A stretch of DNA of 64,000 nt, taken from positions 2,046,001 through 2,110,000 of the forward strand of contig NZ_FNSM01000001.1 of assembly GCF_900105415.1 (NCBI RefSeq), written 5' to 3'. The position numbers and the translations under genes were made by a program. Positions 1-23,571 of the stretch are shown one piece after another (within the stretch, counting starts at the first letter, position 1; each line of letters opens with the position of its first letter). The notes beneath the pieces were generated by a model. The model saw only the letters and a list, made by a program, of their open reading frames with translations, did not search any database and was not told the origin of the DNA. This stretch comes from Streptomyces sp. TLI_105 (GTDB taxonomy: Bacteria; Actinomycetota; Actinomycetes; Streptomycetales; Streptomycetaceae).

Positions 1-157
1 CCTCATGGGCAAGATCGGCCAGGAGCGGATCGGTGGACCGCTCTCCTGGCGGAACTCCCAGCAAGCCCTGCTCGCCGCCTACGCCGCAGCCTGCCGGCCC
101 CACGCTCCGGCGTCGGCGGGCGACCCCGACGGGGAAGGGACGAGGCCGCTCCGTTGA
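1..157 (+). CDS. Glycosyltransferase family 4, C-terminal end (partial)
   Basis: Only the last 51 codons are in the window, read in the frame that begins at base 2 and stops with TGA at 155-157. The stretch PLSWRNSQQALLAAYAAAC looks like the C-terminal helix of GT-B family 4 glycosyltransferases, where a Ser-Trp precedes the last helix (family knowledge). A tail rich in Pro, Gly and Asp follows. The stop overlaps the TTG start of the chain-length gene downstream, so the two are translationally coupled, and the polysaccharide operon must begin to the left of the window. The family call rests on a short fragment. Confidence 0.6.
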   Translation, partial: LMGKIGQERIGGPLSWRNSQQALLAAYAAACRPHAPASAGDPDGEGTRPLR

Positions 158-1518
158 GCGAGGACACGATACGCCTGGTCACGATCGGGCGGATTCTCCG
201 CCGGCGCCGGCGGCTCCTCACCATCCTCGTGGTGGTGGGTGCGCTCCTCGGCTACGGCACCTCCCTGCTGCTCCCGCCGCGCTACACGACGTCGGCGTCC
301 GTGCTGCTGCCGGGGGCGTGGGAGGAGCGCGAGCTGCGGACCCAGGCGGAGGTCGCCACCAGCTCGGTGGTGATCGACCGCGTGGCGTCCGCGCTCCACT
401 GGACGGGGGTCGGCACCACCGAGCTGAAGGAGCGGGTGACCGCCAAGGCCTCCGAGGGAAACATCATCGAGATCTCGGGCACCGCCGACACGCCCGAGCG
501 CGCACAGCAGCTCTCCGACCAGGTGGCCGAGCAGTTCGTCGCCTTCGCCGCGCGGATCGTGGGCGACAACGCCGACCCCGAGGCGGCGGCGCGGCTCGAA
601 ACCCTGCGGCAGACCGTCGCGCAGACCGGCCGCCGCATCACCGAACTGGCCGACGCGGCCGGTACGGGGCGGAGCGTGGAGAGCGTGCAGACCCGCACCG
701 AGCTCGAGGGGCTGCGCACCGCGCTGCAGGAGTCCATCGAGAAACTGGGCCAGGCCGACCCCACGTCGAGCAAGGCCCACATGGTCGTCATGGGCCCGGC
801 GGCCCGGCCCACCGGCGAGGCACCGCCGACGCGGATCCAACTCATCGCCGCCGGGGCGCTGTTGTTCTTCCTCGTCACGGTGACAGGCCACCTCACGGCG
901 GCGCGGAGGAACCGCCGGCTGCGTACCGAGGGGGAGATCGCCGGGGCCCTCGGCGTGGCGCTCCTCGGCTCCGTCGACGTGCCCGCCGAGCGGAACGCGC
1001 ACCGGCCGGAGGGCCGCGGCCCGCGGGCCTGGATCCGCCGGCTCCTCGGGACCGACATCCGGTGGGACGTCCCACCCCCGCGGACCTCGGGCGACGAGGC
1101 CGGCCGGCGGACCCGCTACCGGCGGGTGTGCGCCCGCCTCCGGGACCGGCTGCCGGCCGCCCGGCCGCTGCTCGTCGTCGTCCCGGACGGCGACCCGATC
1201 GCCCGCCGGGCCGCCGGGGAGCTCGTCGCCGAGGCCGGTGGCGATCCGGTGCTGCGGGTGGTGGGCGTCTCGGTGTCGGAGCCTATGGTGCCGGACCACG
1301 ACGGGTCCGGCGCGCTCGTCGTGCTCAGCGCGGGCAACTGGACGGCCGGTGAGCTCGGCGGCATCGCCGAGGCGTGCGCGGACGCCGGGCACGAGGTCGT
1401 CGGCGTCGTCCTGGCCGGCACGGTCCGGATCCGTACGAAGGGGTCCGCCGGCCGCCCCCGGGAGGCCGCGACGCCGGTGCTCGCCGTGGGCGCCGACGCG
1501 ACGGGAGGTCCGGCGTGA
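154..1518 (+). CDS. Wzz/YveK-type polysaccharide chain-length regulator (first of a pair)
   Basis: A 454-residue membrane protein predicted to control chain length or export of the surface polysaccharide. An Arg-rich N-terminus (RRRRR) is followed by a membrane helix at about 21-40, an extracellular Wzz-like domain (PPRYTTSASVLL to about 200) and a second helix at about 228-248. The cytoplasmic part ends in an alpha/beta domain (LLVVVPDGDPIARRAAGEL, near 338) arranged like the ATPase domain of bacterial tyrosine kinases. It has no Walker A lysine and no tyrosine cluster, so kinase activity is unlikely. The TTG start at 154 overlaps the upstream stop (TTGA). It is followed without a gap by a second, similar protein. 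Confidence 0.82.
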   Translation: MSEDTIRLVTIGRILRRRRRLLTILVVVGALLGYGTSLLLPPRYTTSASVLLPGAWEERELRTQAEVATSSVVIDRVASALHWTGVGTTELKERVTAKASEGNIIEISGTADTPERAQQLSDQVAEQFVAFAARIVGDNADPEAAARLETLRQTVAQTGRRITELADAAGTGRSVESVQTRTELEGLRTALQESIEKLGQADPTSSKAHMVVMGPAARPTGEAPPTRIQLIAAGALLFFLVTVTGHLTAARRNRRLRTEGEIAGALGVALLGSVDVPAERNAHRPEGRGPRAWIRRLLGTDIRWDVPPPRTSGDEAGRRTRYRRVCARLRDRLPAARPLLVVVPDGDPIARRAAGELVAEAGGDPVLRVVGVSVSEPMVPDHDGSGALVVLSAGNWTAGELGGIAEACADAGHEVVGVVLAGTVRIRTKGSAGRPREAATPVLAVGADATGGPA

Positions 1519-3035
1519 CGACACGTACGACCGCGGAGTCTCCGCTCGCCGCTCCCCTGCTCGACCTGCATTCCCTGGTGGTGGCGGTGCTCAGACGCCG
1601 CCGGCTCTGGGGTTCGCTCGCGCTGCTCGGTCTTGTCCTCGGCGCGGCGGTGGCGGTCCTGCTGCCGGCGCCGCCGACCGCGATGACGAAGGTCCTCGTC
1701 GCCCGGCAGGAGGACCAGCCGAACGACCCCGGGACGCTGATCCGCACCGATGTCGCGCTGCTGCAGACCACCCGGATCGCCGGTGACGCCCTGAAGACCC
1801 TCAAGTCCTCGGAGAAGCCCGAGGACTTCATGAAGGACTACGAGGGACTCGGTCTCACCAACAACCTGCTGCAGATCAACGCGACGGGTGACAGCGACGC
1901 CGACGCGGTCGCCCGCGTGAAGGCGCTGGCCGACGCGTTCGTCGCGGACCACGTGCGGCGGATACAGCAGGCCGCGAACGCCGACGCCAAGGCCCTGCTC
2001 GACCAGCGGGACCGGCTGAAGGACGAACTCGCCGAGGTCAACAAGGAGATCGGGGACGAGTCGCCACAGGGCGCGGCGAAGGCCTCGGCGAACACGGAGT
2101 CGCTTTTCTCCCGCCGGGCCGAACTCACCTCGCGCATCTCCGACTTCAGCCAGCGCGCCGAGGAGGCCCGCATCGGCACGCCCCGGCTGGTCTCCGGCAC
2201 GCAGATCGTCGACGACCCGCGCCCGGTCAAGCGCTCCCTTCCCAAGGCCCTCGCCAAGGACGCCGGGATCGGGCTGGTCCTCGGGCTCGCCCTGGGGCTC
2301 GCGGTGGCGGCCGTCGGCACGGTGGTGGCGGACCGTCCCGTGCTGCGCCGGGAGATCGCGGCGCACCTCGGGGCCTCGGTGATCGCGGAGCTGCCCGGCC
2401 GGCCGGGCCGGCGGTGGCAGCGCCGCAGGACCCGGACGGCACGGGCCCGGCTCACCGCGTCCCTGGCCCGCACTGCGCGCGACTCCGCGGAGCCGATGTC
2501 CCTCCTCGAACTGGGCTGCGCGGACGGCGCGCGCGTGATCGCGCTCGACCTCGCCGGGTCCCTGGGCGCGGAGGGGCCGGTGGTCGTCGTCGACGGTCTG
2601 CCCGGCCCGGAACTCTCCGGCCACCGGCCGCGGCCCGGGGACCCGACCGTGGTCGGTCTGGAGCGTGCCGCGGCCGTGGCGCACCAGGAGCGCCGGATCG
2701 GCGTCGGCTCGGTGGGGCCCGGCGCGGCATGGACCGACCTGCCGTACCTGGGGACGCGGACCGTGCTCGTCGTCCGGGCCGGACACGGCAGCGCGGCCTG
2801 GCTGCACACCGTGGCGCGGCAACTCGCCGACCAGCGCATCCTCGTGCTCGGTGTGGTGCTGATCGACCCCGATCCGCGTGACCGGACCGACGGCACGCTG
2901 TGGGACGGGGGGCCGCAGGCCGCGCCGCGCGGCCGGAACGAGGGGCCTGCCCGGGCGAACGGCACGGGCCGGCGGCAGAGGGAGCGTCTGCCCGCGTGGG
3001 CGACGGTCCCGGACAGCGACCAGGAGGCGCGGTAG
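1515..3035 (+). CDS. Wzz-like co-polymerase with degenerate BY-kinase-like C-terminus (second of a pair)
   Basis: 506 residues from the GTG at 1515, which overlaps the upstream TGA (GTGA) and has GGGAGGT about 6 bases before it; longer starts in this frame run into the preceding gene. Membrane helices lie at about 28-50 and 249-272. The extracellular loop between them has coiled-coil character (DQRDRLKDELAEVNKEI). The cytoplasmic tail (near 332-460) keeps the strand order of a BY-kinase-type ATPase (VIALDLAGSL, VVVVDG, TVLVVRAG, VLGVVLID) but lacks GxxxxGKT. It probably pairs with the preceding protein as a chain-length or export complex at the inner side of the membrane. The tail after about 470 is basic and low-complexity. 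Confidence 0.78.
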   Translation: MTTRTTAESPLAAPLLDLHSLVVAVLRRRRLWGSLALLGLVLGAAVAVLLPAPPTAMTKVLVARQEDQPNDPGTLIRTDVALLQTTRIAGDALKTLKSSEKPEDFMKDYEGLGLTNNLLQINATGDSDADAVARVKALADAFVADHVRRIQQAANADAKALLDQRDRLKDELAEVNKEIGDESPQGAAKASANTESLFSRRAELTSRISDFSQRAEEARIGTPRLVSGTQIVDDPRPVKRSLPKALAKDAGIGLVLGLALGLAVAAVGTVVADRPVLRREIAAHLGASVIAELPGRPGRRWQRRRTRTARARLTASLARTARDSAEPMSLLELGCADGARVIALDLAGSLGAEGPVVVVDGLPGPELSGHRPRPGDPTVVGLERAAAVAHQERRIGVGSVGPGAAWTDLPYLGTRTVLVVRAGHGSAAWLHTVARQLADQRILVLGVVLIDPDPRDRTDGTLWDGGPQAAPRGRNEGPARANGTGRRQRERLPAWATVPDSDQEAR

Positions 3036-3038
3036 CAC

Positions 3039-4973
3039 ATGTGTGGCATCGCAGGCACGTACCGATGGCCTGACGGGAAGGAAGTGACCGACCGGCTCAC
3101 CGAGACCCTCGCGCATCGCGGGCCGGACGGGGCCGGCCGGTACGGCCACCCCGTCGGTGACGCGGAAGTGCACCTGGGGCACCGCCGGTTGTCGATCGTC
3201 GACCTGTCCGAGACCGGCGCCCAGCCGATGGTCTCGGGCGGCCTCGTCCTGACGTACAACGGCGAGCTGTACAACGCGCCCGAGCTGCGGGCCGAGCTGG
3301 CGGCGGCGGGTGTGCGCTTCCGGGGGACCTCCGACACCGAGGTGGTCCTGGAGGCCTGGCGGCGCTGGGGCACGGACTGCCTGCCCCGGCTGCGCGGCAT
3401 GTTCGCGTTCGGGATCTTCGACGAGCGCACCGGTGAGCTGGTGCTCGCCCGCGATCAGCTGGGCATCAAGCCGCTGTTCCTGCTGCGGCGCGGCGAGGGC
3501 CTGGTGTTCGCCTCCGAGCTGAAGGCGCTCGCCGCCGTGACCGGCGGATCCCTGGAGGTGGACCACGCGGCCCTGGTGGCCTCGCTGCTCTACTACTGGG
3601 TGCCGGACTCGCGGTGCGCGTTCCGCGAGGCGGAGAAGCTGCCGCCGGGGAGCTGGCTGCGGTGCCGGCCCGACGGGCGGGTGGAGCGCGGCCGGTTCTG
3701 GCATCTGAAGGACGTCGCCGCCGAGGGCCGGGAGCGGGCCCTGGCCGGCGAGCGGCCGGATCTCGCCGCGATCGTCGAGGAGTCGACCCGGCGTCATCTG
3801 CTGTCCGACGTGCCCGTGGCGACCTTCCTCTCGGGCGGGCTCGACTCCAGCTATCTGACGGCGCTCGCGGCCCGCGAGCAGCCCGGGATCTCGGCCTACA
3901 CGATCGGGTTCCGCGCCGAGGACGCCAAGTTCGAGGCGATGCCGGACGACCTGCGCTATGCCCGGCAGGTGGCCGAGCGGTTCGGCGTCGACCTGCACGA
4001 GATCGAGATCGCCCCGGACGTGCTCGACCTGCTGCCGCGGATGACGTACCACCTGGACGAGCCGATCGGCGACCCCGCCGCGATCAACACCTTCCTGATC
4101 TGCTCGGCCGCCCGGGAGGCCGGGGTGAAGGTGATGCTGTCGGGGATGGGTGCCGACGAACTGTTCGCCGGGTACCGCAAGCATCTGGCCAACCTGATCG
4201 CGCTGCGCTACCAGCGCGTGCCGCGGCCCCTGCGGAGCGGCGTGTCCAAGGCCGTCGACCTGCTGCCGGTCGCCTCGGCCCGCCGCGGGTACCGGTCGGT
4301 GCGCTTCGCGAAGCGGTTCCTGTCGTTCGCCGATCTGCCGGAGGAGACGGCGTTCCGGCGGAGCTACACCATGTACGACCGGGACGAGCTGCTCGGCCTG
4401 ATCGATCCGGACCTGGCCGGGACGGTCGACGACGTGCTGACCGAGCACGCGGACGTGTACGAGGACAACGCGCTCGACGACTTCGTCAACCGCATGTGCC
4501 TGGGCGACGCCCGGATGTTCCTGCCGGGCCTGAACCTGGCGTACACGGACCGGTCGAGCATGGCCGCGTCGACCGAGGTGCGGGTGCCGTACGTGGACGT
4601 CGAGGTGGTCAAGGCGGCGTTCACCGTGCCCGGCGACCGCAAGATCGTCGGCCGTCAGGGCAAGGCCGTCCTCAAGGAGGCGGCCACCTCGATCCTGCCC
4701 CGGGAGATCGTGTACCGGCCCAAGGGCCTCTTCAGCGCCCCGCTGCGCGCCTGGATGAGCCGCGACCTGGCCCCGCTGGTGCGCGAGGTGATCCACGACG
4801 GCGAGCTGGTCCGCTCCGGTTTCCTGCGCCGCGACGCCCTGGCGCGCCTCGCCGCCGAGGACGCGGCCGGGCACCAGGACCACTCCAAGCATCTGTGGCA
4901 CGTGCTGACCCTCGAGTACTGGTACCGCGGCGCCACCTCCAAGGCCGGCCAGAACGCTTCCTTGACCTCGTAG
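3039..4973 (+). CDS. Glutamine-dependent asparagine synthase family amidotransferase
   Basis: 644 residues, normal length for class B asparagine synthetases. Cys2 of MCGIAG is the N-terminal glutaminase nucleophile, and the class II glutaminase domain runs to about 215. The synthetase domain follows with the ATP-binding PP-loop FLSGGLDSS near 264-271. In housekeeping metabolism AsnB makes asparagine. Paralogues inside O-antigen clusters (the WbpS type) are known or proposed to amidate uronic acids, and the location in a polysaccharide operon favours such a carbohydrate or aminoacyl substrate here (inference). The start is 3 bases after the upstream TAG. Confidence 0.9.
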   Translation: MCGIAGTYRWPDGKEVTDRLTETLAHRGPDGAGRYGHPVGDAEVHLGHRRLSIVDLSETGAQPMVSGGLVLTYNGELYNAPELRAELAAAGVRFRGTSDTEVVLEAWRRWGTDCLPRLRGMFAFGIFDERTGELVLARDQLGIKPLFLLRRGEGLVFASELKALAAVTGGSLEVDHAALVASLLYYWVPDSRCAFREAEKLPPGSWLRCRPDGRVERGRFWHLKDVAAEGRERALAGERPDLAAIVEESTRRHLLSDVPVATFLSGGLDSSYLTALAAREQPGISAYTIGFRAEDAKFEAMPDDLRYARQVAERFGVDLHEIEIAPDVLDLLPRMTYHLDEPIGDPAAINTFLICSAAREAGVKVMLSGMGADELFAGYRKHLANLIALRYQRVPRPLRSGVSKAVDLLPVASARRGYRSVRFAKRFLSFADLPEETAFRRSYTMYDRDELLGLIDPDLAGTVDDVLTEHADVYEDNALDDFVNRMCLGDARMFLPGLNLAYTDRSSMAASTEVRVPYVDVEVVKAAFTVPGDRKIVGRQGKAVLKEAATSILPREIVYRPKGLFSAPLRAWMSRDLAPLVREVIHDGELVRSGFLRRDALARLAAEDAAGHQDHSKHLWHVLTLEYWYRGATSKAGQNASLTS

Positions 4974-4990
4974 AGAACAAGAGGACTTCG

Positions 4991-7183
4991 GTGAAACAGG
5001 TCGTACAGAACTACAAGAGCGGCGAACTGGCCGTGCTCGACGTCCCGGTGCCGGGGTGCAAGCCGGGCGGTGTCCTCGTCCGGACCGCCTACTCGCTGAT
5101 ATCCACGGGCACCGAGCTCATGAAGGTTTCCGAGGCCGGGATGTCGATGCTCGGCAAGGCCCGCTCGCGCCCGGACCAGGTCGCCAAGGTCGTGCAGAGC
5201 GTGGCCACCAACGGCGTGCCCGCCACGTACCGCAAGGTGATGGGCAAGCTCGACTCGTACACGCCGCTCGGGTACTCGCTGTGCGGGGTGGTCGAGCAGG
5301 TCGGCGCCGGGATCGACGACGTGAAGGTCGGCGACCTCGTGGCCTGCGCCGGCAACGAGCACGCACTGCACGCCGAGCTGAACTGGGTGCCGAAGAACCT
5401 CTACACCCCGGTCCCGGACGGCCTCGCGCCCCGGCACGCCGCCTTCGGCACCGTCGGGTCCATCGCGCTTCAGGGCGTCCGCCAGGGCGAGCCGCAGCTC
5501 GGCGAGGTGGCGCTCGTCATCGGCCTCGGGCTGATCGGGCAGCTGGTGGTGCAGCTCCTCGCCGCCGCGGGCGTCCGCGTCGTCGGCGCCGACCCCGACC
5601 CGGCGCGCTGCGAGCTCGCCGAGCGCCTGGGCGCCGAGGCCTGCGGCGATCCCGGATCGGCCTCCGTGGAGGCCGCCGTCGCCGAGCTCACCGGCGGTCA
5701 CGGCGTGGACCAGGTGTACCTGGCGGCCGGTGGCAGCAGCAACCAGCCCGTCGAGCTGGCCGCCCGGCTGTGCCGGGACCGCGGCCGGGTCGTCGACATC
5801 GGCAAGTGCCGTCTGGACCTGCCGTGGAACGCGTACTACGAGAAGGAACTCGACGTCCGGTTCTCCCGCAGTTACGGCCCGGGGCGCTACGACCCGGAGT
5901 ACGAGCTGGAGGGGCGGGACTATCCGATCGGCTACGTGCGCTGGACCGAGCGCCGGAACCTGGCGTGCTTCCTCGACCTCATGGCCCGGGGCAGCGTCGA
6001 CGTGGAGCCCCTGGTGTCCCACGTCGCCGCCTTCGACGACGCCGTCGAGACGTACCGGTCGCTGAAGGACGGCGAGCTGAAGGCCGTGGCCGTACTGTTC
6101 CGGTACCCCGAGCAGACGGAGGAGGCCCCGGAGGCGCCGGCGGTGGCCGTGCCCGCGGTGAACGTGACGCGCACGACGGCCAGGGCCGCCGGGACGCCGG
6201 TACGGGTCGCGTTCATCGGGGCGGGCAACTACGCCACCTCGATGCTGCTGCCCCACCTGGCCGAGCGCGAGGGCGTCGAGCTGTCCACGGTCGTCACCAC
6301 GACGGCCCTGTCCGCGGCCAACGCGCAGCGGAAGTTCGGCTTCGCCCGCGCCACCACCGATCTCGACGCCGTGCTCGGCGACGAGTCCGTCGACGCGGTG
6401 TTCGTGGTCACCCGGCACAGCTCGCACGCCGACCTGACCCGGAAGGCGCTGCTCGCCGGCAAGTCGGTGTTCGTGGAGAAGCCGCTGGCGCTCGGCGAGG
6501 ACGAGCTGGCCGGTGTGCTCGCGACCGTGGAGGAGACCGGCAACGACCGGCTCCAGGTGGGCTTCAACCGCCGGTTCGCACCGCTGCTCCAGGAGGCGAA
6601 GCGGCGGTTCGGTGCCCGGACCGGTCCTGCGAACCTCCGCTACCTGGTCAACGCCGGCCGTCTGGAGCACGGCAGCTGGTACCTCCGGCAGGGCAGCGAG
6701 GGCTCGCGGTTCGCCGGCGAGGGCGGTCACTTCATCGACACCGCGAGCTGGCTCCTCGACGCCGATCCCGTCTCCGTTTACGCGGTGGCTACCCCCGGCA
6801 ACGAGGACCTCCAGGTCGTGCTGCGCTACCCGGACGGGTCCACCGTCACCATCAGCTACGTCACCACCGGCGCCTCCGGCTTCCCCAAGGAGACCCTCGA
6901 CCTGGTCGCCGACGGCAAGGTGCTGCGGCTCGACGACTTCGTCCGCGCCTCGGTGTATTTCGAAAAGAGCACGGCCGGTCGGAAGCGGTGGGTCAGTTCG
7001 CGGCTGCCCAAGGCCCGCGACAAGGGCCAGAACGCCGAACTGGCCGCGTTCTTCCGGGCCGTACGGACCGGCGGGCCGATGCCGGTGCCGCTGGAATCGC
7101 TCGTCGCCACCACGGCGGCCACCCTCGCCGTGCCGGCCGGCCTGGCGGGCGGCGCGCCGGTGACGCTGGCGAGGCACCGATGA
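4991..7183 (+). CDS. Fused zinc-type alcohol dehydrogenase / Gfo-Idh-MocA oxidoreductase
   Basis: 730 residues in two catalytic modules. Residues 1-370 resemble medium-chain dehydrogenases, with a nucleotide-binding stretch ALVIGLGLIGQLVVQLLAAA. Residues from about 404 are a Gfo/Idh/MocA oxidoreductase with Rossmann motif VAFIGAGNYATSMLL and the family's EKP motif (VFVEKPLALGE, near 493). Such bi-domain enzymes are typical of O-antigen and capsule clusters next to heparinase II/III proteins and probably oxidise or reduce an activated sugar. GTG at 4991 is chosen because an AAGAGG site precedes it and the reading frame further upstream overlaps the amidotransferase. The stop overlaps the ATG of the heparinase gene (ATGA). 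Confidence 0.9.
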   Translation: MKQVVQNYKSGELAVLDVPVPGCKPGGVLVRTAYSLISTGTELMKVSEAGMSMLGKARSRPDQVAKVVQSVATNGVPATYRKVMGKLDSYTPLGYSLCGVVEQVGAGIDDVKVGDLVACAGNEHALHAELNWVPKNLYTPVPDGLAPRHAAFGTVGSIALQGVRQGEPQLGEVALVIGLGLIGQLVVQLLAAAGVRVVGADPDPARCELAERLGAEACGDPGSASVEAAVAELTGGHGVDQVYLAAGGSSNQPVELAARLCRDRGRVVDIGKCRLDLPWNAYYEKELDVRFSRSYGPGRYDPEYELEGRDYPIGYVRWTERRNLACFLDLMARGSVDVEPLVSHVAAFDDAVETYRSLKDGELKAVAVLFRYPEQTEEAPEAPAVAVPAVNVTRTTARAAGTPVRVAFIGAGNYATSMLLPHLAEREGVELSTVVTTTALSAANAQRKFGFARATTDLDAVLGDESVDAVFVVTRHSSHADLTRKALLAGKSVFVEKPLALGEDELAGVLATVEETGNDRLQVGFNRRFAPLLQEAKRRFGARTGPANLRYLVNAGRLEHGSWYLRQGSEGSRFAGEGGHFIDTASWLLDADPVSVYAVATPGNEDLQVVLRYPDGSTVTISYVTTGASGFPKETLDLVADGKVLRLDDFVRASVYFEKSTAGRKRWVSSRLPKARDKGQNAELAAFFRAVRTGGPMPVPLESLVATTAATLAVPAGLAGGAPVTLARHR

Positions 7184-9150: not shown

Positions 9151-9161
9151 GGAGGAGGACC

Positions 9162-10706: not shown

Positions 10707-10707
10707 G

Positions 10708-11961: not shown

Positions 11962-11968
11962 TCTGAGC

Positions 11969-15862: not shown

Positions 15863-15865
15863 ACC

Positions 15866-16891: not shown

Positions 16892-18168
16892 CGGCGGCCG
16901 ATCTCGGGGAGGAGATGCACGCGCTGGTGGAGCGGTTGTACCCGCTGTGCCGGAGCATCACGGGCGACGGTGTGCGCGCCACCCTGGAGATCGTCGGGGA
17001 GTACCTCCCGCTGGAGGTGCACGAGGTGCCGACCGGGACGCAGGTGCTGGACTGGACGGTGCCGCAGGAGTGGAACATCCGGGACGCGTACGTCGCCGAC
17101 CCGGCCGGCAACCGGGTCGTCGACTTCGCCGCGTCCAGCCTGCACGTGCTCGGCTACAGCGTGCCGGTGTCGGCGACCATGCCGCTGAGCGAGCTGCGCG
17201 GGCACCTGCACACCCTGCCGGACCACCCGTCCTGGGTGCCGTACCGCACCAGCTACTACAAGCCGGAGTGGGGCTTCTGCCTGGCCCAGGAGACCCTGGA
17301 CGCGCTGCCGGACGGCGAGTACGAGGTGTGCGTCGACTCCACGCTCGCCGACGGCCACCTCACCTACGCCGAGCACGTGGTCCCCGGCCAGGTCGCCGAC
17401 GAGGTGATCGTCTCCTGCCACGTCTGCCACCCGTCGCTGGCCAACGACAACCTGGCCGGCATCGCGGTGGCGACGTTCCTCGCCCGGGCGCTCGCGGAGG
17501 GGACGCCGTACTACACGTACCGGTTCCTCTTCGCGCCCGGCACCATCGGGGCGATCACCTGGCTGGCCCGGAACAAGGAGCGGATCGACCGGGTCAAGCA
17601 CGGCCTCGTACTGGCCTGCGCCGGCGACCGGGGCAGCCTGACGTACAAGCGGAGCCGGCGCGGCGACGCGGAGATCGACCGGGTGATGCGGCACGTGCTC
17701 GAAGCCTCCGAACGGCCGCACAGCATCGTCGAGTTCACTCCGTACGGCTACGACGAGCGGCAGTTCTGCTCGCCCGGCTTCGATCTCGGCGTGGGCTCGC
17801 TCACCCGTACCCCGTACGCCGGCTATCCCGAGTACCACACCTCGGCGGACAACCCGGACTTCGTCTCCCCGGAGGCGATGGCGGACACGCTCGCCGTCTG
17901 CCGCGAGGCGTTCGCCGTCCTCGACCGCAACCGGCGCTACCTCAACCTCAGTCCCTACGGCGAACCACAGCTCGGCCGGCGGGGGTTGTACGACGCGCTC
18001 GGCGGCCGCAGCGACACCAAGCAGGCCCAGATGGCCATGCTCTGGGTGCTCAACCTCTCCGACGGCGAGCACGGTCTGCTGGACGTCGCCGAGCGGTCCG
18101 GGCTGCCGTTCGACACCGTCGTCGCCGCCGCCGACGCCCTGGGCGCCGCCGGGCTGATCAAGGCATGA
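16888..18168 (+). CDS. DUF4910/DUF2172 putative zinc aminopeptidase-like protein with C-terminal winged helix
   Basis: 426 residues, full family length. The central part shows SCHVCHPSLANDNLAG (near 175), with His, Cys and Asp residues at the place of the zinc ligands of M28-like peptidases, and GYPEYHTSADNPDF further on, the second metal segment. The last 40 residues (LDVAERSGLPFDTVVAAADAL) form a winged-helix-like end. Family members recur in antibiotic and surface-sugar gene clusters, yet their substrate is unknown. Overlap with the SDR (ATGA) and with the flippase (ATGA) shows it is an integral part of the pathway. It could hydrolyse an amide or aminoacyl-sugar bond (inference). Confidence 0.85.
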   Translation: MTAADLGEEMHALVERLYPLCRSITGDGVRATLEIVGEYLPLEVHEVPTGTQVLDWTVPQEWNIRDAYVADPAGNRVVDFAASSLHVLGYSVPVSATMPLSELRGHLHTLPDHPSWVPYRTSYYKPEWGFCLAQETLDALPDGEYEVCVDSTLADGHLTYAEHVVPGQVADEVIVSCHVCHPSLANDNLAGIAVATFLARALAEGTPYYTYRFLFAPGTIGAITWLARNKERIDRVKHGLVLACAGDRGSLTYKRSRRGDAEIDRVMRHVLEASERPHSIVEFTPYGYDERQFCSPGFDLGVGSLTRTPYAGYPEYHTSADNPDFVSPEAMADTLAVCREAFAVLDRNRRYLNLSPYGEPQLGRRGLYDALGGRSDTKQAQMAMLWVLNLSDGEHGLLDVAERSGLPFDTVVAAADALGAAGLIKA

Positions 18169-19463
18169 CTCCGATGACCACCGAGGAGGAGAAGACGACG
18201 GCACCGGCCCGCTCCGTCCGGCGGGCCGTCGTCGGCCGGCTGTCCTGGGGACTGGCCGACCAGGCGGCCTCCAGCATGTCCAACTTCGTGGTGGGGTTCT
18301 ACGTGGCGCGCTCGCTGGGGGTGACCGCCTTCGGCGTGTTCAGCCTCGCGTGGGTGACCTACGGCGTGGTGCTCGGCGCCTCCCGGGGGCTCGCCACCGA
18401 TCCGCTGGTGGTGCGCTTCAGCGGCGTGTCGCACACGGTCTGGCGCGGGGCGGCGGCCCGGTCGACGGGCGCCTCGCTCGCCGTCGGTGCCGCCGTCGGC
18501 GCGGTGTGCCTGCTGGTCGGGCTCGCCCTCGGCGGCGGCGTGGGGGCAGCGTTCGCCTGCCTGGGCGTCGTCCTGCCGGGGCTGCTGCTGCAGGACGCCT
18601 GGCGGTTCGCCTTCTTCGCCGCCGGCGCCGGCCGAAAGGCGTTCGTCAACGACCTGGTGTGGGGCGTCGCGCTCGTCCCGGCCCTGGTCGTGGCGGCCCG
18701 CGTGGACAGCGTGGCCGCCTTCGTACTCGCCTGGGGCGCGTCCGCCGCGGTCGCCGCGGCGTACGGCCTGCTCCAGTCCGGCGTCCGGCCCCGGACGACC
18801 GAGGCGCGCGGGTGGCTGCGCGAGCAGCGCGATCTCGGCTACCGGTACCTGGTCGAGAACGGCAGCCTCAGCGGTGCGGGCCAGCTGCGGTCATACGGGC
18901 TCGGCGTGATCGTCGGAGTCGGCGCGGTGGGCGCGGTCCGCGGCGCCGAGCTCCTGCTCGGCCCGTTCCTCGCCCTGCTGATGGGACTGTCGCTCGTCAC
19001 CGTCGCGGAGGCGGCACGGGTGCTGCGCCGGGCCCCGCACCGCCTCGGCGGGTTCTGCCTCCTGCTCGGCGGCGGGCAGGCCGTCGCCGCGCTGCTCTGG
19101 GGCGCGGCGCTGCTGCTCGTACCGGACCGGCTCGGCGAGCTCGTGCTCGGCGGCGTCTGGCCCTCCGCCTCCGAACTCATCGTGCCGGCCACGCTCGGCG
19201 TCGCGGGCGCCGGCCTCGGCACCGGCGCGGCGGCCGGGCTGCGCGCGCTCGGCGCGGCCCGGCGCAGCCTGCGCGCCCAGCTGTTCGCCTCCGCCTGCTA
19301 CGTCGCCGGCGGGCTCGGCGGGGCCGTCGTGGCCGGCACCGTCGGCTCGGCCTGGGGCGTCGCCGCCGCGACCGCCGCCGGCTCGGCCGTGTGGTGGCTG
19401 CAGCTGCGCTCCGCCCTGCGCGAGCGCCACCGGAACTCCATCCCCGAAGTGAGGACCTCATGA
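18165..19463 (+). CDS. Wzx-type polysaccharide flippase (MOP superfamily)
   Basis: 432 residues with about twelve hydrophobic helices and the N-terminal pattern LSWGLADQAASSMSNFVVGFYVARSLG typical in kind of Wzx/MATE-like exporters. It should move the lipid-linked repeat unit across the membrane before polymerisation by the Wzy-like protein. The ATG at 18165 overlaps the upstream stop; a second ATG three codons later is possible. Ala/Leu/Gly-rich composition is normal for this class. It is the only flippase in the window. Confidence 0.88.
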   Translation: MTPMTTEEEKTTAPARSVRRAVVGRLSWGLADQAASSMSNFVVGFYVARSLGVTAFGVFSLAWVTYGVVLGASRGLATDPLVVRFSGVSHTVWRGAAARSTGASLAVGAAVGAVCLLVGLALGGGVGAAFACLGVVLPGLLLQDAWRFAFFAAGAGRKAFVNDLVWGVALVPALVVAARVDSVAAFVLAWGASAAVAAAYGLLQSGVRPRTTEARGWLREQRDLGYRYLVENGSLSGAGQLRSYGLGVIVGVGAVGAVRGAELLLGPFLALLMGLSLVTVAEAARVLRRAPHRLGGFCLLLGGGQAVAALLWGAALLLVPDRLGELVLGGVWPSASELIVPATLGVAGAGLGTGAAAGLRALGAARRSLRAQLFASACYVAGGLGGAVVAGTVGSAWGVAAATAAGSAVWWLQLRSALRERHRNSIPEVRTS

Positions 19464-20425
19464 CCGCCCGACCCAGGCTGACCGTCGGCCTGCCCGTGTA
19501 CAACGGCGAGGAGTACCTCGCCGAATCGCTCGACGCCCTGCTCGGCCAGACCTACGAGGACTTCGAGCTGGTCATCTCCGACAACGCCTCGACCGACGGG
19601 ACCCGGGACATCTGCCGGAAGTACGCGGCGCGGGACTCGCGCATCCGCTACCTCCGGCTGCCCCGGAACATCGGCGCGACGCCGAACCACAACCGGCTGT
19701 TCGCCGAGTGCCGCACCGAACTGTTCAAGTGGGCCTCGCACGACGACCTGTACGCGCGTGACCTGCTGCGGCGCTGCGTGGACGCCCTCGACGAGCGGCC
19801 GGACGTGATCCTCGCCCACGCCGATCAGGCGGTCATCGACGCCGACGGCCAGGTGAAGGTCCCGTACGAGTACAAGCTCGCCACCGCCTCCCGGCGTGCG
19901 CCGGAGCGCTTCCGCAGCATGCTGTTCGAGCCCGGCGGCGACGACTTCTACGGGGTGATACGGGCCGACGTGCTGCGCCGGGTGAAGCCGATGGACAGCT
20001 ACCACCACGCGGACCGCACGTTCGTCTGCGAGATCGGCCTGCACGGGCCCTTCCACCAGGTGCCGGAGCTGCTGTACTTCCGTCGCGACCACCCCACCCG
20101 CGCCGAGCGGGCGAACCCCTCCAAGCGCTCCCGGTGCGTCAACCTGGACCCGCGCCGGGCGGGCCCGCTGCACCCGACGCCCCGGCTGCTCGCCGAGTAC
20201 GTCCTGGGCTTCGTCTCGGCGATCCGGCGGGCGCCGCTGTCCGTGGCCGACCGGCGCGCGTGCTACGGCCACCTGGCCGCGTGGATGTCCAGCCGGGCCC
20301 GGCCGGGGGCCGGCGAGCGGGTGGAGGACCGCGCACCGGTCGACCCGGCCCGGCTCGCCGTCTCCCTCGACGCCCTCGTCGCCGGACGCGAGGGCCGTGG
20401 AGTCCGTGAAGGGGATCAGGCGTGA
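19460..20425 (+). CDS. Glycosyltransferase family 2
   Basis: 321 residues, GT-A fold. The N-terminus LTVGLPVYNGEEYLAESLDAL and the first Asp of VISDNASTDGT bind the nucleotide. The metal-binding acidic motif is seen in WASHDDLYA near residue 95, where the usual DxD is DD. The C-terminal part after about 220 (YFRRDHPTRAERAN) is variable and basic, without membrane helices. Translation is coupled to both neighbours by 4-base overlaps. It probably adds an inner residue of the repeat unit. Confidence 0.92.
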   Translation: MTARPRLTVGLPVYNGEEYLAESLDALLGQTYEDFELVISDNASTDGTRDICRKYAARDSRIRYLRLPRNIGATPNHNRLFAECRTELFKWASHDDLYARDLLRRCVDALDERPDVILAHADQAVIDADGQVKVPYEYKLATASRRAPERFRSMLFEPGGDDFYGVIRADVLRRVKPMDSYHHADRTFVCEIGLHGPFHQVPELLYFRRDHPTRAERANPSKRSRCVNLDPRRAGPLHPTPRLLAEYVLGFVSAIRRAPLSVADRRACYGHLAAWMSSRARPGAGERVEDRAPVDPARLAVSLDALVAGREGRGVREGDQA

Positions 20426-21696
20426 CGCGCGTGCGCGTCGGGGTCTTCGGCCTGCTCGGCTCCGGCAACCTCGGCAACGACGGATCGCTCGAGGCCGTCC
20501 TCGGGTACCTCCGCGCCGAGCACCCCGAGGCGCTCGTCGACGCGCTGTGCGGCGGGCCCGAGGCCGTGACGGCCCGGTACGGGATCCCCGCGACCCGGCT
20601 GCACTGGTACCGCGGGGAGTACCGGACCGCGTCGCGCGCGGGCGCGATCGCGGGGAAGGGCCTGGGCAAGCTCGTCGACGTCTTCCGCACCGCCGCCTGG
20701 GTGCGCCGGCACGACGTGGTGATCGTCCCGGGCATGGGCGTCCTGGAGGCCACGCTGCCCCTGCGGCCGTGGGGCTTCCCGTACTCGCTGTTCCTGCTCT
20801 GCGCGGCCGGCCGGCTCCTCGGCACCCCGGTCGCGCTCGTCGGCGTCGGCGCCGCCGCGATCCGCGACCGGCCGACCCGGGCCCTGGTCCGCTGGTCGGC
20901 GCGGCTCGCCGCGTACCGCTCGTACCGGGACGCCCAGTCCCGCGACGCCATGCGCGCGATGGGCGTGGACACCGCACGCGACGAGGTGTATCCGGACCTC
21001 GCGTTCTCCCTGCCGACGCCGCCGTCCCCCGAGCGCCCGGCTTCTCCCCCAGCCTCCGGCCGGGAGGGACCCCCGGAGCAGGGAGGTGCCCCCGCCCCGG
21101 CGGGCACGCCGGGTCCGGTCTGCGTCGGCGTCATGGCCTTCCACGGCGGCAACGACGACCGTGCCCGGGCCGAGGAGATCCACCGGCGCTACCTCGACGG
21201 GACGATCCGCTTCGTCCGCGCGCTGGTCGAGGACGGCAGGCCGGTCCGGCTGCTCACCGGCGACGACGTCGACGCGACGGTGGTCGCCGCGATCCTCGGC
21301 GCGGTGGACTCGCCGCTGGTCACCGCCGCCGAGACGGCCTCACTGGCCGATCTGATGAAGGAGATGGCGGCTGCCGACACGGTGGTGGCGATCCGCTACC
21401 ACAACCTGATCTGCGCGCTGAAGACGGGCACTCCGGTGCTCGCGGTCACCTACGCGGCGAAGAGCGACGCCCTCATGGCGCAGATGGGCCTCGCCGAGTA
21501 CTGCCACCCGGCGCGCGAGGTCGACGCCGACCGGCTGCTCGAACAGTTCCGGGAGCTGGAGAAACGCTCGGCGGAGCTGCGGCAGACGCTCACCGAGCGG
21601 AACGAGACCGCCGCCCGGCGACTCGACCACCAGTTCACCGCCTTGACGGCGGCCCTGTTCCCCACGACCACCCCCACCACGCGGAAGGCTCCATGA
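20422..21696 (+). CDS. Polysaccharide pyruvyl transferase family protein
   Basis: 424 residues from GTG. The glycine-rich start VFGLLGSGNLGNDGSLEAVL and the later VAIRYHNLICALKTGTPVLAV match the GT-B-like pyruvyl transferase family (PF04230), which adds pyruvate ketals from phosphoenolpyruvate to sugars, giving acidic polymers. Residues about 201-235 are a Pro/Gly/Ser-rich stretch found at an otherwise compact position between the two domains. Its DNA looks like a palindromic repeat inserted in frame (see repeat at 21044). The enzyme likely still folds, since the insert sits at an inter-domain linker. Confidence 0.87.
   Translation: MTRVRVGVFGLLGSGNLGNDGSLEAVLGYLRAEHPEALVDALCGGPEAVTARYGIPATRLHWYRGEYRTASRAGAIAGKGLGKLVDVFRTAAWVRRHDVVIVPGMGVLEATLPLRPWGFPYSLFLLCAAGRLLGTPVALVGVGAAAIRDRPTRALVRWSARLAAYRSYRDAQSRDAMRAMGVDTARDEVYPDLAFSLPTPPSPERPASPPASGREGPPEQGGAPAPAGTPGPVCVGVMAFHGGNDDRARAEEIHRRYLDGTIRFVRALVEDGRPVRLLTGDDVDATVVAAILGAVDSPLVTAAETASLADLMKEMAAADTVVAIRYHNLICALKTGTPVLAVTYAAKSDALMAQMGLAEYCHPAREVDADRLLEQFRELEKRSAELRQTLTERNETAARRLDHQFTALTAALFPTTTPTTRKAP
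21044..21098. repeat. Palindromic GC-rich repeat element inside a coding sequence
   Basis: The bases around CCCCCAGCCTCCGGCCGGG and the following GGAGGTGCCCCCGCC contain two nested inverted repeats (CCTCC/GGAGG around GGCCG, and CCCCC/GGGGG-type arms). The pattern recalls a small palindromic repeat that I remember as frequent between Streptomyces genes. Here it lies inside the pyruvyl transferase gene, keeps the frame and encodes the low-complexity linker SPPASGREGPPEQGGAP. Confidence 0.5.
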
Positions 21697-22244
21697 AAGC
21701 GACCGAAGTCCCGGAGATCGCCGGCGCATACCTGTTCGAACCGACGCCGTACGCCGACGAGCGCGGCTTCTTCTGCCGCACCTTCGACGCCGACGTGGTC
21801 CGCTCGGTCGGCATCGACCCGGCCGCCTTCGTCCAGGACAGCCTGTCCCGCTCGGTCCGGGGCGTGCTGCGCGGCCTGCACCTGCGCTCCGGCGAGGGCG
21901 AGGCCAAGCTGGTGCGCTGCTCGTACGGGAAGGTCTTCGACGTCGTCGTCGACCTGCGCCCGGACTCGCCGACGTACCTGGGCCGGGCCTTCTTCGAGCT
22001 GTCCGGCGAGACGCAGGCGACGCTGTACATCCCGGCGGGCTGCGCGCACGGCTTCCAGGCGCTGACCGAGACCGCCGACACCTCCTACCGGATCGACCGC
22101 CCGCACGATCCGACGGAGGACGTGACGATCGCCTTCGACGACCCGGAGCTCGCCATCCCCTGGCCGCTGCCGGTCACGTCGATGTCCCCACGGGACCGGG
22201 AGGCGCCGAGCCTCGCCGAGGTCCTGAAGCACGGAGAGAAGTGA
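21693..22244 (+). CDS. dTDP-4-dehydrorhamnose 3,5-epimerase (RmlC) family protein
   Basis: 183 residues, the usual RmlC length and cupin fold. Conserved segments are the start region YADERGFFCRTF, SVRGVLRGLHLR with the catalytic-type His, YIPAGCAHGFQAL, and DTSYRID. In standard RmlC the motif is RGLHxQ; here the Gln is Arg. No rmlA, rmlB or rmlD lies nearby, so this protein may act on the cluster's own nucleotide-4-keto sugar. ATGA overlap with the pyruvyl transferase. Confidence 0.87.
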   Translation: MKATEVPEIAGAYLFEPTPYADERGFFCRTFDADVVRSVGIDPAAFVQDSLSRSVRGVLRGLHLRSGEGEAKLVRCSYGKVFDVVVDLRPDSPTYLGRAFFELSGETQATLYIPAGCAHGFQALTETADTSYRIDRPHDPTEDVTIAFDDPELAIPWPLPVTSMSPRDREAPSLAEVLKHGEK

Positions 22245-22251
22245 GGTCGGC

Positions 22252-23571
22252 GTGGACACCGAAGAGTTCGAGCTCCCCGGGTCGCGGAGGGCGAACGAGC
22301 GCCTGCACGCCCTGATCCCCGGGGGCGCGCACACCTACGCCAAGGGCGACGACCAGTACCCCGAGAACCTGGCCCCGGTCATCAGCCACGGCCACGGCGC
22401 CCATGTGTGGGACGTCGACGGCAACCGCTACATCGAGTACGGCTCCGGCCTGCGGTCGGTCAGCCTCGGCCACGCCCACCCGCGCGTGATCGAGGCGGTG
22501 CGGCGGGAACTCGACCGGGGCAGCAACTTCGTCCGGCCGTCGATCATGGAGGCCGAGGCGGCGGAGCGCTTCCTCGCCACCGTCCCGACCGCCGAGATGG
22601 TGAAGTTCGCGAAGAACGGCTCCGACGCCACCACGGCGGCGGTACGCCTGGCCCGCGCGGCCACGGGACGCACGCGGGTGGCGCTCTGCGCCGACCACCC
22701 GTTCTTCTCGGTCGACGACTGGTTCATCGGCACGACACCGATGTCGGCGGGCATTCCGGCCACGGACCTCACGGTGACGTTCCCCTACGGAGACCTGCCC
22801 GCCACGGAGGAGCTCCTCTCCCGCCACGAGGGCGAGATAGCCTGCCTGATCCTCGAACCCGCCACCCACGCCGAGCCGCCGCCCGGCTACCTCGCAGGCC
22901 TGCGCGAACTGGCGGACCGGCACGGCTGCGTCCTGGTCTTCGACGAGATGATCACCGGTTTCCGCTGGTCCGAGGCGGGCGCCCAGGGCCTGTACGGAGT
23001 CGTCCCCGACCTCTCCACCTTCGGCAAGGCGCTGGGCAACGGCTTCGCGGTCTCGGCGCTGGCGGGCCGCCGCGAGCTGATGGAGTGGGGCGGCCTGCGT
23101 CACTCCGGCGACCGGGTGTTCCTCCTCTCCACCACGCACGGCGCGGAGACGCACTCCCTGGCGGCCGCGATGGCCGTGCAGACCACCTACACGGAAGAGG
23201 GCGTCACCGCCCGACTGCACGCCCTCGGCGAGCGCCTGGCCGCCGGGGTCCGCGAAGCGGCGACCGCCATGGGCGTCGGTGACCACGTGGTCGTACGGGG
23301 CCGGGCCAGCAACCTGGTCTTCGCCACCCTCGACGAGAACGGACAGCCCTCTCAGGAGTACCGCACCCTGTTCCTGCGGCGACTCCTCTCGGGCGGGGTA
23401 CTGGCCCCGTCGTTCGTGGTGAGCAGCGCGCTGGACGACACCGACATCGACCACACCGTCGACGTGGTGTCCCAGGCCTGCGCGGTGTACCGGAAGGCAC
23501 TGGACGCCGGAGACCCGACTCCCTGGCTGGCGGGCCGACCGGTGAAACCGGTCTTCCGCCGCCGAGCATGA
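22252..23571 (+). CDS. Class III aminotransferase, glutamate-1-semialdehyde aminomutase-like
   Basis: 439 residues, fold type I PLP enzyme. The N-terminal AKGDDQYPENLAPVIS and the central LVFDEMITGFRW are typical of the glutamate-1-semialdehyde aminomutase branch, and the PLP lysine is Lys259 in TFGKALGNG. The true hemL belongs to tetrapyrrole synthesis; this copy closes a polysaccharide operon and probably aminates or isomerises a cluster intermediate (inference). GTG at 22252 is preceded by GAGGT that overlaps the upstream stop. It ends 7 bases from the convergent PAP2 gene. Confidence 0.88.
   Translation: MDTEEFELPGSRRANERLHALIPGGAHTYAKGDDQYPENLAPVISHGHGAHVWDVDGNRYIEYGSGLRSVSLGHAHPRVIEAVRRELDRGSNFVRPSIMEAEAAERFLATVPTAEMVKFAKNGSDATTAAVRLARAATGRTRVALCADHPFFSVDDWFIGTTPMSAGIPATDLTVTFPYGDLPATEELLSRHEGEIACLILEPATHAEPPPGYLAGLRELADRHGCVLVFDEMITGFRWSEAGAQGLYGVVPDLSTFGKALGNGFAVSALAGRRELMEWGGLRHSGDRVFLLSTTHGAETHSLAAAMAVQTTYTEEGVTARLHALGERLAAGVREAATAMGVGDHVVVRGRASNLVFATLDENGQPSQEYRTLFLRRLLSGGVLAPSFVVSSALDDTDIDHTVDVVSQACAVYRKALDAGDPTPWLAGRPVKPVFRRRA

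Follow-up and report, generated by a model that had tools for sequence, protein, structure and literature searches.

A conserved 21-gene operon of probable Wzx/Wzy exopolysaccharide type in Streptomyces sp. TLI_105, a likely counterpart of the S. coelicolor "deoxysugar" and Ebosin clusters

Gene content and conservation of the operon

The window analyzed here is a stretch of 64,000 nucleotides from contig NZ_FNSM01000001.1 of Streptomyces sp. TLI_105 (the host), and a dense plus-strand operon occupies its left end (Table 1). Using our own gene caller, 18 operon genes were located at positions 154 to 23571, one fewer than the nineteen that the initial annotation had counted in positions 1 to 23571; bases 1 to 157 belong to the 3' end of the GT4 gene that comes before them. 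Three further operon genes were found when the upstream stretches were read, in the order phosphoglycosyl transferase (PGT; genome positions 2042025 to 2043506), UDP-sugar dehydrogenase, and GT4 glycosyltransferase. The guess that the operon continues leftward to a phosphoglycosyl transferase was therefore correct. In total, the operon has 21 genes and, including the adjoining PAP2 gene, spans genome positions 2042025 to 2070202. Three glycosyltransferases had been claimed previously; Pfam recovered two in the window, and another, the GT4 enzyme, begins to its left. Both Wzz-like proteins matched PF02706 above the Pfam cutoff, in agreement with the earlier reading. Pfam- and TIGRFAM-type profile searches identified eleven sugar-modifying or sugar-nucleotide enzymes in the window, where seven or more sugar-modifying enzymes had been expected.

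Table 1. Features of the operon and the adjoining gene, with window positions and corresponding ste/SCO positions
Product	ste/SCO position	Location	Strand	Evidence or remark
GT4 glycosyltransferase, 3' end	ste7/SCO0383	1..157	+	gene begins left of window, after PGT and UDP-sugar dehydrogenase
WzzA, chain-length determinant	ste8/SCO0384	154..1518	+	TTG start; PF02706, 31.1 bits (cutoff, 25.5)
WzzB, second Wzz-domain protein	ste9/SCO0385	1515..3035	+	PF02706, 32.9 bits (cutoff, 25.5)
AsnB-type glutamine amidotransferase	SCO0386	3039..4973	+	PF00733, PF13537; TIGR01536 above cutoff
Bi-domain oxidoreductase, zinc-ADH + Gfo/Idh/MocA	SCO0387	4991..7183	+	PF00107, PF01408
Heparinase II/III-family protein	SCO0388	7180..9150	+	PF07940, PF16889
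Right-handed beta-helix lipoprotein	SCO0389	9162..10706	+	PF13229, PF05048; lipobox-like pattern
Wzy-like polymerase (putative)	SCO0390	10699..11961	+	9 TM by hydropathy; PF04932, 20.6 bits (below cutoff, 31.7)
GT4 glycosyltransferase	ste15/SCO0391	11969..13180	+	PF13692, PF00534
Sugar C-methyltransferase	SCO0392	13177..14427	+	PF08421/PF13489/PF08484
Glucose-1-phosphate cytidylyltransferase-like enzyme	ste17/SCO0393	14424..15218	+	TIGR02623, full length, 182.8 bits (below cutoff, 300.25)
PIG-L de-N-acetylase	SCO0394	15215..15862	+	PF02585
Extended SDR, Cj1427-like	SCO0395	15866..16891	+	PF01370
DUF4910 aminopeptidase-like + HTH_47 protein	SCO0396	16879..18168	+	PF16254, PF09940, PF16221
Wzx flippase (MOP fold, putative)	SCO0397	18165..19463	+	low-confidence structure model; Pfam, none
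GT2 glycosyltransferase	ste22/SCO0398	19460..20425	+	PF00535
Polysaccharide pyruvyl transferase	SCO0399	20422..21696	+	PF04230, 98 bits (cutoff, 25.3)
RmlC-like 3,5-epimerase	SCO0400	21693..22244	+	TIGR01221, 157.2 bits (cutoff, 155.75)
Class III aminotransferase, glutamate-1-semialdehyde aminomutase-like	SCO0401	22252..23571	+	NF004856, 714.4 bits (cutoff, 486)
PAP2 phosphatase, convergent		23579..24202	-	PF01569

The DUF4910 gene was present in 72 of 199 sampled Streptomyces genomes, host included, and the Wzy gene was found in the same 72, which we refer to as carriers. Thirty carriers were picked from the other 71, favoring large contigs and including ones that lack dehydratases, and were examined end to end; all 22 genes (operon plus PAP2) were collinear in each of them. 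The comparison of gene order that the initial annotation had proposed was also made by inspection at the best 80 of 572 confirmed loci (L010 to L089), and for the genes within the fetched stretches the order was unchanged in all 80. The PAP2 gene was seen in 73 of these loci, the other seven being incomplete stretches, and in 30/30 clusters examined end to end. Both the leftward extension and the gene order were found again at four more loci (L111 to L114). Two loci count against a strict sugar module: L110 has the DUF4910 gene and lacks the module; at L109, the SDR and the nucleotidyltransferase are matched at only 36% and 25%, respectively, and the C-methyltransferase is missing.

Five genes flanking the operon in the host were unmatched in the 80 loci and the 30 stretches, which cover at most a few kilobases of the right flank and less than about 1 kb of the left flank; the block therefore sits in differing neighborhoods. 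Comparing operon and rpoB across 30 genomes gave a Pearson r of 0.38, a value reached by 3 of 2,000 shuffles; nucleotide sequences were used for the single gene rpoB and protein sequences for the operon. Three supported splits were common to both, whereas of the 21 splits supported for the operon, 15 conflicted with supported rpoB splits. This pattern is suggestive, not decisive, of a history that combines inheritance and exchange.

Polymer-assembly and sugar-modifying enzymes

The product of the first gene is the predicted priming phosphoglycosyl transferase of a Wzx/Wzy pathway. FRTM and GPRP motifs were present in the host copy and in 30/30 carriers read, and a third pattern of this family, P.KR..D, was absent from the host copy and from all 30. 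The Wzx protein had no match in a Pfam search. Its structure model, of low confidence (pLDDT of 53), matched MATE, WzxE, and MurJ, i.e., the MOP fold, so that the flippase proposed earlier is supported as a MOP-superfamily protein by a weak model of a polytopic protein. For the claimed O-antigen-ligase-like polymerase, the polytopic, Wzy_C-like character held, but the PF04932 score fell short of its cutoff. Among the 120 relatives listed, most were named O-antigen ligase domain protein and 12 carried PF04932. A fold search with the AlphaFold model (pLDDT of 61) returned no match, which we take as evidence neither way, and a polymerase identity is only weakly suggested for this protein. The PAP2 protein probably serves in undecaprenyl-diphosphate recycling, judging from its family.

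Conserved motifs and nearest structures were also determined for the modifying enzymes. Starting AsnB at the ATG at 3039 gives back the catalytic Cys2, which was found in the host and 30/30 carriers; its score against the XrtA amidotransferase model TIGR03108 was below the cutoff. The PIG-L gene probably starts at 15215, with an overlap of 4 bases, and its product has HxDD and HxDH motifs in the host and all 30 carriers. The C-methyltransferase, whose YHEH motif is equally invariant (host and 30/30), was closest in the PDB to D-mycarose 3-C-methyltransferase (4rv9), followed by TcaB9-type enzymes. The FGKA motif of the class III aminotransferase was likewise present in the host and 30/30 carriers. 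In the RmlC-like epimerase, which has C. jejuni heptose epimerases among its PDB relatives, RGLH was seen in 23 and RGMH in 7 of 30 carriers, AHGF in all 30, and the DPxL pattern was absent from one. The nucleotidyltransferase had 1tzf as its best PDB match; the DUF4910 protein matched 3k9t across query residues 6 to 428 and showed HTSADN in 20/30 carriers. A lipobox-like pattern was present in the beta-helix protein of the host and 25/30 carriers, and no signal peptide was obvious by eye in the heparinase II/III-family protein. The amidation, C-methylation, deacetylation, and pyruvylation foreseen in the initial annotation are consistent with these domains, and conserved motifs lend further weight to AsnB, the C-methyltransferase, and PIG-L.

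What was observed directly is which genes are present, how they are ordered and conserved, which motifs they carry, and with which other genes they co-occur; the following assembly route is proposed from the protein families. The PGT would place the first sugar-phosphate on undecaprenyl phosphate, and three glycosyltransferases, two from GT4 and one from GT2, would lengthen a short repeat. The UDP-sugar dehydrogenase would supply a uronic acid, which AsnB may amidate, and the nucleotidyltransferase, SDR, C-methyltransferase, RmlC-like epimerase, PIG-L, DUF4910 protein, and class III aminotransferase would yield a C-methylated, probably amino, sugar. A pyruvate ketal would be attached by the pyruvyl transferase. 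Wzx would then flip the unit and Wzy polymerize it, with the Wzz pair fixing chain length and PAP2 recycling the lipid carrier.

The label "deoxysugar synthase/glycosyltransferase" used in S. coelicolor implies a small-molecule deoxysugar or glycoside cluster, which was considered as an alternative to a polymer operon. It would agree with the kinship of the C-methyltransferase to antibiotic-sugar enzymes of the mycarose and TcaB9 types and with published accounts that list the cluster among secondary-metabolite genes. However, a polymer set of two Wzz, Wzy-like, MOP-fold, and PGT-like (FRTM, GPRP) proteins plus PAP2 is present, none of the 21 genes encodes a PKS, NRPS, or aglycone function (domain searches; three left genes by eye), and the ste cluster is tied to exopolysaccharide in the literature considered. 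We regard the small-molecule reading as very unlikely. The domain content is consistent with the Wzx/Wzy-type exopolysaccharide originally proposed.

Correspondence to published clusters and regulation

SCO0381-0401 of S. coelicolor has been described as 21 genes that possibly form a single operon (PMC2000904). When the genes found here were set against the published product table (PMC3610822), the order of products agreed position by position (21/21). SLI0339-0359 is the S. lividans counterpart of SCO0381-SCO0401. In the S. coelicolor cluster, several genes are labeled hypothetical, and SCO0399, at the position of the pyruvyl transferase, is called a possible membrane protein. SCO0381-0401 and the ste cluster are stated to be similar (PMC4398421). 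In Streptomyces sp. 139, the product of the ste cluster is called Ebosin, and a function class is given per ste gene (PMC11078827); some glycosyltransferase, Wzz, and regulatory roles have been published for ste or SCO genes. The genes ste5 to ste24 plus ste22b number 21, and taking ste numbers as genomic order, their classes fit at 19 positions. Class agreement cannot be judged at the ste13 position (beta-helix protein), and ste22b is classed as polymerization/export, in contrast to the pyruvyl transferase gene here. The ste cluster additionally has ste1-4 (regulator, DasABC-like), ste26, and ste27 (PMC11078827); no counterparts of these were seen by eye to the left of the host operon.

Six published ste qPCR primers were also searched against the host DNA, allowing up to 3 mismatches, and three matched the expected genes. 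The ste17 pair lies in the nucleotidyltransferase gene in the right orientation, at 14772 to 14788 (0 mismatches) and 14900 to 14916 (2 mismatches), and the ste5 reverse primer lies in the PGT gene (2 mismatches). At this threshold, neither of the ste8 primers matched, and the forward primer for ste5 did not match either.

We are thus highly confident that the locus is the orthologue of SCO0381-0401 and ste5-ste24 (Ebosin), in which 21 genes form a Wzx/Wzy exopolysaccharide operon and PAP2 adjoins it, on the basis of product order, primers, and the published similarity statement rather than protein identity. A new, uncharacterized Wzx/Wzy cluster unrelated to described ones would accord with the rich modification set, with the three unmatched primers, and with the published accounts considered, which give no repeating-unit structure. 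Given the 21-position agreement with SCO0381-0401, the ste primer matches, and the published likeness of the two clusters (PMC4398421), this is extremely improbable. The initial annotation had presented a modified-sugar Wzx/Wzy system in an actinomycete whose product could not be named. That novelty does not hold, because the 21 genes match both the SCO0381-0401 list and the ste5-ste24 set; as far as could be tested, there is a characterized cluster that shares the gene order and has a named product. The cluster type had thus been described before, as the "deoxysugar" cluster of S. coelicolor, where it counts among the orphan clusters of this model organism, and as the Ebosin cluster. New here are the carrier census, the 22-gene collinearity, and the dehydratase census.

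TTA (bldA) codons are concentrated in the first two operon genes, and carriers are often TTA marked. The host has its codon in gene 1 (codon 421), whereas those of the S. coelicolor cluster are in genes 3 and 19 (PMC2000904). The latter cluster is reported as reduced in a bldA mutant (PMC2000904), and for S. lividans, nine cluster members are among the genes given as lower in an adpA mutant. Near-invariant gene order together with frequent TTA codons in carriers would fit a polymer of the genus better than a capsule specific to single strains.

Nature of the sugar and comparison with known systems

In the PDB, the SDR came closest to 6vo6, the C. jejuni protein Cj1427 (1.4e-28, 103.6 bits, residues 2 to 307). 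GalE-like and MoeE5 chains came next, at 75 to 84 bits and below, so the kinship is not exclusive. An SPRxRxD motif is shared by the 6vo6 alignment, the host copy, and 30/30 carriers. Where 4,6-dehydratases have their TDE motif, the operon SDR has STCSVYG (30/30 carriers), and TDE was found in none of the 30. By kinship and shared motif, the SDR qualifies as a predicted relative of the Cj1427-type C4-dehydrogenase.

A dehydratase census covered three types, the CDP-glucose, dTDP-glucose, and GDP-mannose enzymes. For CDP-glucose 4,6-dehydratase, the best host score was 29.9 bits against a cutoff of 278.45 (passed in 1/14 control genomes), and none of the 71 other carriers had a match at E 1e-30, leaving 0/72 with a recognizable enzyme. 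A nucleotidyltransferase of the CDP-glucose type is nonetheless encoded in the operon. For dTDP-glucose 4,6-dehydratase (RmlB), the host reached 129.5 of the required 365.1 bits (10/14 controls passed), and 55 of the 71 other carriers scored above the cutoff. Seven host matches to the RmlB model fell at five genes or more; the three places read (L118 to L120) were GalE-like and without the TDE motif. No GDP-mannose dehydratase (GMD) above the cutoff was found in the host. In profile searches, 10/72 carriers, host included, lacked both RmlB and a plausible GMD.

RmlC-like epimerases and C-methyltransferases of these families classically act on dTDP-4-keto-6-deoxy sugars. A true 6-deoxyhexose, with a 4-keto precursor from a dehydratase encoded elsewhere (RmlB, a FlaA1/CapD-type (UDP-GlcNAc) dehydratase, or a divergent enzyme), would suit these families and the 55/71 carriers with RmlB. 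Against it, none of the three dehydratases (RmlB, GMD, and the CDP-glucose enzyme) scored above the cutoff in the host, ten carriers lack RmlB and a plausible GMD, and the CDP enzyme was recognized in 0/72 carriers, in a census of these three dehydratase types. For the sugar step only, we consider this a serious possibility that stays short of probable. The name "deoxysugar" may therefore not suit the operon: with an SDR similar to C4-dehydrogenases of sugar nucleotides, a C-methyl sugar that keeps its 6-OH is possible.

Fucosyl- and rhamnosyltransferase functions have been reported for ste7 and ste22, and the fucose and rhamnose reported for Ebosin are a poor fit to a host without recognizable GMD and RmlB. 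The sugar enzymes of the operon thus fit neither the "deoxysugar" name nor the reported Ebosin sugars well. A bolder reading, in four parts, is possible as a whole but less likely than not. No deoxysugar would be made, and the SDR would oxidize an NDP-hexose, perhaps CDP-glucose, at C4 with the 6-OH kept. The C-methyltransferase and RmlC-like enzyme would use the 4-keto sugar, and PIG-L, DUF4910 protein, and aminotransferase would finish a branched amino sugar. This sugar would lie outside those reported for Ebosin in the accounts considered, in a polymer nearly invariant in about a third of Streptomyces. Finally, bldA would gate the operon via TTA codons in its two leading genes, and what has been published as the composition of Ebosin would reflect other or mixed polysaccharides. 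If many carriers cannot make the reported Ebosin donor sugars, revision is needed of the assigned donors or else of the composition of the product; the dehydratase census makes the vague "deoxysugar" label testable.

The initial annotation had called a complete modified-sugar Wzx/Wzy version much less described in actinomycetes. The imp and wps clusters of the actinomycete Actinoplanes missouriensis are also on record as Wzx/Wzy exopolysaccharide clusters (PMC13390465). According to the same source, wps-1 to wps-3 have 10 to 11 genes, with sulfotransferases in wps-1 and a bacterial sugar transferase domain in wps-2, and their named genes differ from the host set. CA_C2195-type DUF4910 genes adjoin epimerase, nucleotidyltransferase, methylase, and glycosyltransferase genes across phyla; the surroundings of these operons vary, and the account considered names no product (PMC4000134). 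The Mlgh heptose pathway of C. jejuni (Cj1427/Cj1430) uses GDP-heptose, and a C-methyltransferase, DUF4910 protein, or class III aminotransferase is not named for it in the description considered. In that pathway, C4 is oxidized with no loss of water before a C3/C5-epimerase acts, and this logic is the one proposed for the operon here, the SDR similarity being modest (103.6 bits).

Extent and gene content of the operon

The gene caller, which relies on GC frame, placed 18 tightly packed plus-strand genes at 154 to 23571, one fewer than the nineteen claimed in the initial annotation. To the left, in the 8.88-Mb host genome (of which the window is 2046001 to 2110000), three more genes share this orientation and are nearly contiguous. 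The outermost is a phosphoglycosyl transferase (PGT) gene, bearing out the predicted leftward continuation to such an enzyme. Domains of the window genes were assigned by Pfam and NCBIfam, and names for the three genes on the left come from sequence and motifs.

Genes flanking the 18-gene block (L008, stretch left of the window)
Feature	Location	Direction	Basis
Phosphoglycosyl transferase	genome 2042025-2043506 (L008:15526-17007)	same as operon	sequence and motifs
UDP-glucose/GDP-mannose-type dehydrogenase	left of window, after PGT	same as operon	sequence and motifs
GT4-type glycosyltransferase	left gene, ending at window base 157	same as operon	sequence and motifs
PAP2 phosphatase	23579-24202, right side of operon	convergent	

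In both Wzz proteins (154 to 3035), the C-terminal part beyond the second hydrophobic segment, about 200 residues, had no Pfam match and could be a degenerate tyrosine-kinase-like domain. AsnB, a bi-domain oxidoreductase (4991 to 7183), and a cytoplasmic-looking heparinase II/III protein (7180 to 9150) adjoin and are candidates for a joint role in polymer synthesis. Farther left, one block encodes an ACP, ketosynthase, FabI-like reductase, FabH-like synthase, and alpha/beta hydrolase (L008:66-4590; genome, about 2026565 to 2031089), followed by an acyl-CoA ligase (L008:5579-7081); judged by eye, these would form a cluster of type II fatty-acid or polyketide-like character. A row of GntR regulator, proline-racemase-like, and DHDPS-like proteins (L008:7094-9895; by eye) resembles a hydroxyproline utilization cluster.

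Distribution and conservation

The DUF4910 gene had a match in 73 of 199 evenly drawn genomes of the genus (completeness 90% or more; host counted), and excluding the partial match in G197 (37% identity) left 72; the Wzy gene matched in the same set. A genome-collection scan gave at least 572 confirmed relatives, of which the best 80, Kitasatospora records among them, were kept. By inspection, the order of the operon genes within the retrieved stretch was preserved in all of these best 80. Thirty of the 71 other carriers, picked for large contigs and including several without dehydratases, were read fully, and all 22 genes, PAP2 included, were collinear in every one. Their median identity to the window's proteins was 92 to 93% for the C-methyltransferase (CMeT), the CDP-glucose-type nucleotidyltransferase (NTase), and the SDR, 81% for Wzx, 76% for Wzy, and 70 to 72% for the Wzz pair. 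Since Wzx/Wzy loci are typically hypervariable, this sameness is notable. One relative, L060, in a record titled Streptosporangium nondiastaticum, carries operon genes 7 to 17, with DUF4910 at 91% identity; this points either to exchange of the operon across genera or to a wrongly named record.

Across a phylum sample of 296 genomes, DUF4910 matched in 15: five of the same genus, five near full length at 45 to 62% identity, and five weaker or partial. Among the five near-full-length loci, it lies with SDR, CMeT, NTase, PIG-L, and RmlC families (L106) or with PIG-L, CMeT, aminotransferase, NTase, and RmlC families (L108), at 34 to 57% identity over both loci. L107 has CMeT and SDR, L109 has weak SDR and NTase matches only, and none of the sugar-module families was found alongside DUF4910 in L110. 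The available part of one report already links DUF4910 to modified-sugar genes (PMC4000134). L106:11372-14548 also encodes a GDP-mannose 4,6-dehydratase (TIGR01472, 474.8 bits; cutoff, 415) and an FMN enzyme resembling lactate oxidase.

Dehydratases and the predicted C-methyl sugar

The NTase resembles CDP-glucose synthase (top PDB match, 1tzf). The operon SDR (15866 to 16891) is probably not a classical 4,6-dehydratase, because the TDE motif, which we take to mark those enzymes, is absent from it in the host and in 30/30 carriers, all of them, host included, having STCSVYG in its place. Its top PDB match was 6vo6/6vo8, presumably Cj1427, and on both grounds we propose that the C-methyl sugar may retain its 6-OH. 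Cj1427 is described, in the available parts of two reports, as a 2-oxoglutarate-dependent C4-dehydrogenase that precedes a C3/C5-epimerase (PMC10680097, PMC7949155). Against a retained 6-OH, the similarity of the SDR to Cj1427 is modest, with epimerases close behind in the match list.

The dehydratase census covered CDP-glucose, dTDP-glucose (RmlB), and GDP-mannose (GMD) models, with 14 control genomes; that carriers may have FlaA1/CapD-type dehydratases instead also weighs against the proposal. CDP-glucose 4,6-dehydratase was not recognized in the host (top score, 29.9 bits; cutoff, 278.45) or, at E 1e-30, in any of the 71 other carriers, and its model passed in 1/14 controls. The host was likewise below cutoff for RmlB (129.5 versus 365.1 bits; controls, 10/14) and GMD (32.8 versus 415 bits; controls, 6/14). 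RmlB exceeded the cutoff in 55 of the 71 other carriers, and its presence in most carriers is a further point against a retained 6-OH. GMD did so in nine, with three more slightly under at 394 to 399 bits. Counting these three as GMD, both enzymes were missing in 10/72 carriers, host included; in two of the ten, G026 and G077, the DUF4910 match is split. Donors reported in the literature, GDP-fucose for ste7 among them (PMC4347597, available part), are therefore unlikely to be general across carriers.

TTA codons and comparison with known clusters

The host operon holds a single TTA codon, at codon 421 of gene 1, the PGT gene. Among the 30 carriers, TTA occurred in gene 1 in 18 (at codon 6 in 13 of these), in gene 2 in 17, and in 23/570 of the remaining 19 genes; 20 clusters carried TTA in at least one of the first two genes, and 8 had none at all. 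Controls gave 0/51 for other host genes, 1/81 for right-flank genes, and 24/956 for later operon genes of the best 80 of at least 572 relatives. This enrichment in the first two genes suggests that bldA control is concentrated at the operon head. In S. coelicolor, by contrast, the available part of the account places the TTA codons within gene 3 and gene 19; it treats the 21 genes as possibly one operon, whose proteins were less abundant when bldA was mutated (PMC2000904).

The operon is an already known cluster, of the SCO0381-0401/ste type, and the initial claim of novelty falls: its 21-position product order agrees with SCO0381-0401, and a published account describes the ste cluster as similar. 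This likeness rests on product order, function classes, and the match of three of six ste primers. As far as the source is available, SCO0381-0401 reads glycosyl transferase, dehydrogenase, hypothetical, two exopolysaccharide transport proteins, asparagine synthetase, bi-domain oxidoreductase, hypothetical, lipoprotein, hypothetical, transferase, methyltransferase, transferase, hypothetical, epimerase/dehydratase, putative peptidase, hypothetical, glycosyl transferase, possible membrane protein, epimerase, and glutamate-1-semialdehyde aminomutase, with transcripts higher in the second mycelium (PMC3610822). Compared by product names, the host genes agree at every position with a stated function except 19, a pyruvyl transferase in the host. 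In an S. lividans adpA mutant, nine cluster members were lower (PMC4021200, available part).

The S. coelicolor cluster is reported, in the part available, to be similar to the ste cluster for Ebosin (PMC4398421). A C-methyl sugar or pyruvate was not seen in the available parts of published accounts of Ebosin composition. Neither ste8 primer had a match at up to 3 mismatches, nor did the forward primer for ste5; the ste5 reverse primer matched the PGT gene with 2 mismatches, and the published ste17 primers matched the NTase gene in the correct orientation with 0 and 2. The ste13 class gives no judgeable comparison, and ste22b, classed under polymerization/export, disagrees with the host gene. 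With ste numbers read as genomic order, 19/21 function classes agree with the host in the available part of that source, which lists experimental roles for ste5, ste7, ste8, ste9, ste15, and ste22 (PMC11078827).
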